The notes beneath the pieces were generated by a model. That model saw nothing but the letters and a program-made list of their open reading frames with translations, was not told where the DNA came from and made no database searches. Made by a program: the position numbers and the translations under genes. From assembly GCF_016106005.1 (NCBI RefSeq), contig NZ_JACADR010000002.1:1-64000 (forward strand): a stretch of DNA of 64,000 bases, written 5' to 3'. This DNA is from Roseomonas rosulenta. Its GTDB lineage: Bacteria > Pseudomonadota > Alphaproteobacteria > Acetobacterales > Acetobacteraceae. Shown here piece by piece: positions 43,629 through 50,345 of this stretch; within the stretch, counting starts at the first letter, position 1, and each line of letters opens with the position of its first letter.

Positions 43629-44504
43629 TCAGGCCGGCACCGGGCCTTCCGCTTCCTCGAGATCGACGCCCACCCACAGCCCGTGCTCGCCCCCGCCCAG
43701 GATGACGCCGCGCAGCGGGCTGACATCGCCGAAATCGCGCCCCCAGGCGAGCACCACATGCTCGTCGCGCACCACGATGTCGTTGGTCGGGTCGAGGCCC
43801 ACCCAGCCATGCTCCGGCCCCAGCCAGGCCTCGACCCAGGCATGCGACTGGTCGGCGCCACGCCGCGCCGTCCCGCCCGGCGGCGGACGCGTGCGCACAT
43901 AGCCCGAGACATAGCGCGCCGGCAGGCCGAGCCCACGCAGGCCGCTCACCATCACGTGCGCATAGTCCTGGCACACCCCGACCCGGCTCTCGAGCACCTC
44001 CGCCACCTGCGTGTTCGGACCCGTCGCGCCGGGCTTGTAGGTGAAGTCGCGCCGGATGCGCGCCATCAGCTCGAGCAGCCCGGCCAGCACCGGACGGCGC
44101 GCCGGAAACGACGCCGCCGCATAGCCCCGCGCCGCCGGCACCAGCGGCGCGAGCGGGCTGCCGAAGGTGAATTCCACAGCCTCGGAGCCGCGCGCGATGT
44201 CGCGCACCACCTCCCAGGGCAGCGTGGTCGCGGGCGCAGGTGGCTCGGGGAAGCGCACCTCGACCAGAGCCTCGGCCACCACCTCGAAGCGCGCATGGGG
44301 AACGTCGATGAAGACGCGGGTCGCGAGATTGCCGAAATGGTCCGGCGCCTCGCTCACATGGGACGGCGCGGGCGTCACCTCCAGCGTCGCGCGCGCCACC
44401 TGCTGATGCGCGAGGCTCCGCGGCGTCAGCAGCAGCAGGTGCGCCGCGAGGTCCACCGGATGCGCATAGGCATAGGTGGTAACATGCCGCAGCCGATAGA
44501 TCAC
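43629..44504 (-). CDS. Transglutaminase-like cysteine protease-fold protein (bacterial N-terminal domain type)
   Basis: A 291-residue protein with an N-terminal beta domain (IYRLRHVTTYAYAHPVDLAAH, the bacterial transglutaminase-like N-region) and a core with the complete triad: Cys in GVCQDYAHVMVSGLRGLG, His in SHAWVEAWLGPEHGW and Asp in GLDPTND. No signal peptide, so it is predicted to be cytoplasmic. It starts at a GTG overlapping the stop of the ATP-grasp/alpha-E gene. Family members may cleave, ligate or cross-link peptides; its partners here favour peptide synthesis or trimming. Confidence 0.9.
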   Translation of the reverse strand: MIYRLRHVTTYAYAHPVDLAAHLLLLTPRSLAHQQVARATLEVTPAPSHVSEAPDHFGNLATRVFIDVPHARFEVVAEALVEVRFPEPPAPATTLPWEVVRDIARGSEAVEFTFGSPLAPLVPAARGYAAASFPARRPVLAGLLELMARIRRDFTYKPGATGPNTQVAEVLESRVGVCQDYAHVMVSGLRGLGLPARYVSGYVRTRPPPGGTARRGADQSHAWVEAWLGPEHGWVGLDPTNDIVVRDEHVVLAWGRDFGDVSPLRGVILGGGEHGLWVGVDLEEAEGPVPA

Positions 44505-49900: not shown

Positions 49901-50345
49901 TCAGCGCCACCAACATGTCGACCGTGCGCTGCTCGGTGCGCGGCACTTCGGCCAGCAGGGCCTCCAGCAGCGGGCCGGAGGGGTCGATCCGGCGGAACGG
50001 TGCCAGTTCCTGCTCGAGCCCCGGATCGTAGGCGAAGGGCCAGGTCTCGGCCTCGGGCTCGAGGAAGAAGTCGAAGGGGTTGATCGTCGCCATGTCGGCA
50101 ACGAGGTCCACGGTCACGTCGAAATGCGTCACGCGCTCGGGAAACACTACGCGGGCCAGGAAATTTCCCTGCGGGTCCTGCTGCCAGTTCAGGAAGTGGG
50201 GCTTGGGTTCGACCTTCAGCGCATAGGAGAGCACAGGCGTCCGGCTGTGCGGCGCCGGTCGCAGTCGGATGGTCTGCGGGCCGAGGCTGGCAGGCCGGGC
50301 ATAGCGGTAGCTGGTGCGGTGCGTCAGCGCGACGTGGATGGACAT
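46971..50345 (-). CDS. Transglutaminase-DUF2126 fusion protein
   Basis: A very large protein of 1124 residues. The N-terminal ~290 residues are a transglutaminase-like domain: [20 protein letters not shown], catalytic Cys in [20 protein letters not shown], His in [17 protein letters not shown] and Asp in GLDATSG. The rest is DUF2126, with [53 protein letters not shown] and [10 protein letters not shown]. Parts of DUF2126 resemble COOH-NH2 ligases of the glutamine-synthetase/GCS2 superfamily, which would make it an amide-bond former. First gene of the cluster. I chose ATG 50345, where the transglutaminase domain begins; the open frame continues upstream by chance. Confidence 0.92.
   Translation of the reverse strand: [1124 protein letters not shown]

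Follow-up and report, generated by a model that had tools for sequence, protein, structure and literature searches.

Gene systems that combine Alpha-E, circularly permuted (CP) ATP-grasp, transglutaminase and DUF2126 domains were predicted by Iyer et al. (2009), as that work is cited in PMC5666114 and PMC6376114, to make or modify peptides. In Burkholderia cenocepacia, genes I35_5080-83, annotated as DUF404/407, DUF403, a transglutaminase and a large transglutaminase protein, are NtrC- and sigma-54-dependent (PMC5491218). The Anbu operon of Pseudomonas putida, PP_2685-2688, is listed under NtrB/NtrC and is induced on nitrogen limitation (PMC7801951). The cluster analysed here belongs to the class of systems that Iyer et al. 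predicted. Rv2566, Rv2567 and Rv2569c of Mycobacterium tuberculosis may form a parallel to it. We know of no enzyme activity demonstrated for DUF2126, and a literature search on DUF2126 and the COG names returned no functional paper.

The three-gene cluster and its distribution

Three minus-strand ORFs occupy exactly positions 43629-50345 of the window, the 64,000-nucleotide stretch of Roseomonas rosulenta DNA under study (Table 1). The ORFs overlap one another, gene 1 and gene 2 by 8 nt and gene 2 and gene 3 by 4 nt, and the coordinates given in the initial annotation are correct to the base. The domain content and the two fusions proposed there (transglutaminase to DUF2126; ATP-grasp to Alpha-E) were likewise borne out: each fusion is one open frame, gene 1 carries the Pfam domains Bact_transglu_N, Transglut_core and DUF2126, and all Pfam domains of the three genes score far over the cut-offs. 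CP-ATP-grasp, Alpha-E, transglutaminase and DUF2126 genes are thus found together, as in clusters of the Iyer type. NCBIfam gave no match, and nothing matching the cluster turned up in viral contigs, where signs of a phage origin were sought.

Table 1. Features of the three-gene cluster (window positions).
Feature	Position	Strand	Details and basis
Gene 1, transglutaminase-DUF2126	50345..46971	-	ATG start, 1124 aa
Gene 1, transglutaminase domain	residues 1-275, nt 49521-50345	-	Pfam TG_N and TG core
Gene 1, DUF2126 amidoligase domain	residues 276-1124, nt 46974-49520	-	Pfam DUF2126, 1224 bits
Gene 2, CP-ATP-grasp-Alpha-E	46978..44501	-	ATG start, 825 aa; Pfam
Gene 2, circularly permuted ATP-grasp half	about 45650-46759	-	CP_ATPgrasp_2, 359 bits
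Gene 2, Alpha-E half	about 44570-45505	-	Pfam Alpha-E, 193 bits
Gene 2, Ala161-Asp162-Arg163, where active relatives carry the catalytic Glu-Asp-Asn	46490..46498	-	alignment position mapping
Gene 3, stand-alone transglutaminase-fold protein	43629..44504	-	GTG start, 291 aa; Pfam Bact_transglu_N and Transglut_core
Sigma-54-type -24/-12 element TGGACCG-CGGA-TTGCA	50395..50410	-	matrix scan of the window

The same gene order (transglutaminase fused to DUF2126, ATP-grasp fused to Alpha-E, transglutaminase) was found with domain profiles in 65 of 89 DUF2126 loci, the window included, several of the others being cut by contig ends; 80 of the named loci come from a DUF2126 profile search of genome contigs and the others from plasmid records. 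The layout occurs in Acidobacteriota, Planctomycetota, Verrucomicrobiota, Desulfobacterota and Nitrospirota as well as in alpha-, beta- and gammaproteobacteria; at least six phyla are represented. The compact fused form, previously presented as special, is the commonest one among DUF2126 loci. A plasmid of Granulicella (Acidobacteria) carries precisely these three genes. The Caballeronia, Pseudomonas and Burkholderia loci share the order with the Granulicella locus and the window but, in Caballeronia and Burkholderia, unfused ATP-grasp and Alpha-E genes also lie just upstream, unlike in the window; the Caballeronia locus differs further in having a zinc-ribbon metallopeptidase gene. This metallopeptidase (Peptidase_Mx; PF10005 and PF15887) is often encoded next to DUF2126 or Alpha-E in members of the alpha-, beta- and gammaproteobacteria. 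Of the 33 family genomes with a full-length copy, about half have it, judged by coordinates, on one stretch with DUF2126 or Alpha-E, and it is near the cluster in Marinobacter and Vreelandella as well as in Caballeronia. Peptidase_Mx was not found in the window's genome.

Two plasmid-borne loci were observed in passing. A 90 kb IncFII plasmid of Enterobacter roggenkampii holds a full double set (5769-14960), consisting of an unfused pair and a fused three-gene cluster, with IS6-family elements on its flanks and an arsenate reductase gene nearby. On a megaplasmid of Acidithiobacillus caldus, genes for a PDC sensor protein and an aliphatic amidase lie close to the DUF2126 cluster, as does ntrBC, and an Anbu-like ORF is located upstream.

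The flanks of the window cluster (39300-43556 and 50502-53621) encode oligopeptide ABC permeases, two Amidohydro_3 proteins, a class II aldolase and a ferric-reductase-like protein. These were rejected as parts of the system, given that they do not recur beside the cluster in 20 relatives. When neighbours were clustered over the named loci, the chromosomal synteny of Pseudomonas swamped the result, which was discarded.

Catalytic residues of the fused ATP-grasp

An alignment of 84 fused and 53 unfused ATP-grasp rows, representing 83 and 53 loci, was used to follow six residues: the Asp, Glu and Asn that bind metal, the ADDK-motif Lys, the Lys preceding the Gly-rich loop and one Gly of that loop. 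Their catalytic role we take to follow from established knowledge of glutathionylspermidine synthetase. The complete set (DENKKG) is present in 50 of the 53 unfused copies; the three exceptions group with the fused copies in the tree, and two of them end near a contig edge or the limit of the stretch. Among the 83 fused loci, neither the Asn nor the ADDK Lys is kept in any and the Glu is kept in one, while the Asp persists in 79 and the second Lys in 45. The window copy has D148, A161, R163, P321, R367 and A374 where active relatives have DENKKG, and accordingly lacks the metal-binding D-x-E-x-N motif and the ATP-site Lys and Gly loop of an active CP-ATP-grasp ligase. At the 22 loci where both forms coexist, the unfused copy is intact and the fused one dead by this measure in 22 of 22. 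The tree separates the two forms with a support of 1.0, placing 134 of 137 rows correctly. Across almost all of the bacteria examined, the fused ATP-grasp is devoid of its catalytic residues.

The fold itself is retained. The model of gene 2 is glutathione-synthetase-like: it scores Z 42.1 against 3n6x and about Z 25 against glutathione synthetases; 3n6x is a solved unfused relative with the full residue set in its alignment. The Alpha-E domain gave only helical-bundle matches, at Z 11 or less, which we read as uninformative. From its lost residues, the fused ATP-grasp of the window is predicted, with near certainty, to be catalytically dead, though it could still bind nucleotide, given the Asp and the second Lys that many fused copies keep.

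The initial annotation had supposed two working kinds of amide-forming enzyme. The ligase-like nature of DUF2126 stands (see below), but the second enzyme lacks its metal and ATP residues. A peptide product or protein tag is a hypothesis of the literature. It seems quite unlikely that, as both the literature and the initial annotation have it, the ATP-grasp and DUF2126 are both active ligases building a peptide or tag that the transglutaminases attach or trim: the absence of the catalytic Glu and Asn and of the ATP-site Lys, here and in fused copies elsewhere, argues against this model, even if an unfused ATP-grasp of a Yersinia Anbu operon does release phosphate from ATP (PMC6376114) and an intact copy on contig C590 means that the genome overall could still run both ligases.

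The lost positions are not simply variable. Fused copies share a conserved motif of their own at these sites, approximately VLxDRTQAPSGxGYALENR, with Arg at the Asn position in most and conserved Thr, Pro and Gly around it. Because these positions are conserved as a different motif, the fused ATP-grasp is under selection and not decaying. The same conservation could be taken to mean that the protein is rebuilt and not dead, with DRTQAPSG forming a new active site (for an ATP-independent transfer, for example, or another nucleotide reaction). We consider this highly doubtful: fused copies have lost the Gly-rich loop and the ADDK Lys or vary at these positions, a state more typical of a pseudoenzyme, and the PDB matches include no ligand-bound structure of the fused type.

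The putative DUF2126 ligase, the transglutaminases and probable nitrogen control

In the DUF2126 model (pLDDT 81.6), a glutamine-synthetase fold is apparent: every one of the 50 rows listed by VIA-align is a glutamine synthetase or a close homologue, at Z 13.3-14.9 and with about 220-280 residues aligned, with Foldseek's own E-values at 0.017 or worse. A search with the sequence, PDB included, yielded nothing useful and no glutamine synthetase among the matches. The fold match, and not the sequence, lends support to the published assignment of DUF2126 as an amidoligase.

Transglutaminase-fold domains may be proteases, amidases or cross-linkers, and sequence does not decide among these. Both domains of the cluster, previously described as Cys proteases, have an intact Cys-His-Asp triad as is characteristic of the superfamily: C180/H229/D245 in gene 1, kept in 86 of 86 relatives, and C178/H221/D238 in gene 3, kept in 78-79 of 79. 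Gene 3 also matches a PDB chain named protein-glutamine gamma-glutamyltransferase (E 9.4e-14). Further transglutaminase genes are present on contigs C105 and C266 of the window's genome, those on C105 (5446-7348) being two neighbouring transglutaminase-fold genes away from both operons.

Gene 1 is preceded, 49 nt before its start codon and on the minus strand, by a -24/-12 element of the type found in sigma-54/NtrC regulons. The matrix used was written from general knowledge, and sites were accepted at a score of at least 10 and no more than 120 nt upstream. With these settings, sites precede the DUF2126 operon in 10 of 31 family members, whereas among other genes of the retrieved loci the figure is 9 of 465 (Fisher p about 1e-8); the reverse strand gave two sites and permuted matrices a mean of 0.2. 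About two thirds of the family have no recognisable site within 120 nt. None was found ahead of the 21 unfused ATP-grasp genes of the family set, whose start codons are less certain, and a scan for sigma-70 promoters was empty. The window's genome contains rpoN. The operon is probably transcribed from a sigma-54 (nitrogen-limitation) promoter, and the enrichment agrees with the published NtrC control in Burkholderia and of the P. putida Anbu operon.

Nitrogen control also suits a salvage role in which no defined peptide is made: the transglutaminase domains would act on amides and isopeptides by deamidation or hydrolysis, and the ammonia or amines so released would be re-captured as amides by DUF2126. 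Along with the sigma-54-type promoter and the published NtrC control, the glutamine-synthetase fold of DUF2126, the ntrBC and aliphatic amidase genes close to the cluster in A. caldus, and the covariation of the cluster's domains with urea-metabolism domains in marine metagenomes (PMC3597751) all point in this direction. Nevertheless, the genomes already possess dedicated glutamine synthetases, and salvage leaves the conserved pseudoenzyme partner unexplained; we regard it as unlikely.

The reading that we favour, at roughly even odds (about 0.5), is that the cluster is a standard DUF2126-type operon: a nitrogen-stress ligase of the glutamine synthetase type tethered to a Cys amidase or transamidase, with the pseudo-ATP-grasp-Alpha-E protein as a non-catalytic partner. 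Under nitrogen shortage, it would probably both form and cleave amide bonds of small peptides or amines. The analysis shows the gene structure, the folds, the loss of catalytic residues, the second operon (see below) and the promoter enrichment; from these we infer what is catalysed, in which direction, and what the dead protein does. Nitrogen shortage would induce the operon. DUF2126 would be the working ligase, using ATP to activate a carboxylate and joining it to an amine. The amides formed, or related ones, would be hydrolysed or transferred by the two transglutaminases, one a domain of the DUF2126 chain and the other a protein of its own. The ATP-grasp-Alpha-E protein would act as a pseudoenzyme, serving as substrate holder, scaffold or regulator.

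A separate Anbu operon and the relation to known systems

As initially annotated, no proteasome gene is seen near the cluster, which contains no Anbu and is to this extent no canonical Anbu operon. The proteasome-like partner is, however, present elsewhere in the genome. Contig C590 (503-3912) carries an unfused, intact CP-ATP-grasp gene, an Alpha-E gene and, directly after this pair, a gene for a 243-residue protein that matches solved Anbu structures (E 1e-66 to 1e-90); no transglutaminase gene adjoins them. No Pfam model matches this protein, the Pfam proteasome model included, and absence of Anbu as judged by the latter would therefore mislead. The sole Pfam proteasome match in the genome was rejected as the partner; it adjoins hisB and reads as HslV. 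The unfused pair also speaks against the idea that fusion substitutes for separate genes. By its residues, the catalytically intact ATP-grasp of this genome is the unfused copy in the Anbu operon.

The claim that related clusters often carry the protease holds weakly for the DUF2126 type, as flanks of up to about 9 kb contained an Anbu-like ORF at only 6 of 88 other loci. Among 80 family genomes, DUF2126 is present in 47, Anbu in 13 and both in 11; DUF2126 does not need Anbu, since 36 of the 47 DUF2126 genomes are without it. When the two Alpha-E forms were separated by bit score, 40 of these 47 genomes had the fused form, 44 had the high-scoring, mostly unfused form and none lacked both. A more general proposal, which we put forward tentatively and as somewhat less than probable, is that DUF2126 operons constitute a nitrogen-stress system distinct from the Anbu operon, comprising a ligase of the glutamine-synthetase fold, a tethered amidase of transglutaminase fold and an ancient, cross-phylum pseudo-ATP-grasp-Alpha-E protein that split from the active form and took on a conserved function without catalysis, for instance that of presenting a bound substrate peptide to the ligase.

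The operon type was already predicted in 2009 and is common. What may be new is the loss of the ATP-grasp active site across phyla, the promoter enrichment and the metallopeptidase link. The system itself is widespread, being present in 47 of the 80 sampled family genomes and at least six phyla; with one supposed ligase recognised as a pseudoenzyme, DUF2126 as the ligase to assay, nitrogen limitation as the condition and a separable Anbu operon, an annotation problem becomes a few direct tests.

Relative to the systems described by Iyer et al., the window cluster has the same domain families but an ATP-grasp lacking the catalytic residues. The canonical Anbu operon, exemplified by P. putida PP_2685-2688, has homologous ATP-grasp, Alpha-E and transglutaminase genes and shares control by nitrogen limitation, which for the window cluster is probable; in the window, by contrast, DUF2126 is present, the ATP-grasp is fused and dead, and Anbu is missing, an Anbu-type operon forming a separate locus in the same genome (contig C590). 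Escherichia coli glutathionylspermidine synthetase/amidase (GspSA), the closest working parallel, resembles the proposed scheme in joining a ligase and a Cys amidase on one chain, by analogy and not by membership. Its synthetase shares the CP-ATP-grasp fold (Z about 21), whereas in the window the ligase has a glutamine-synthetase fold and the amidase a transglutaminase fold.
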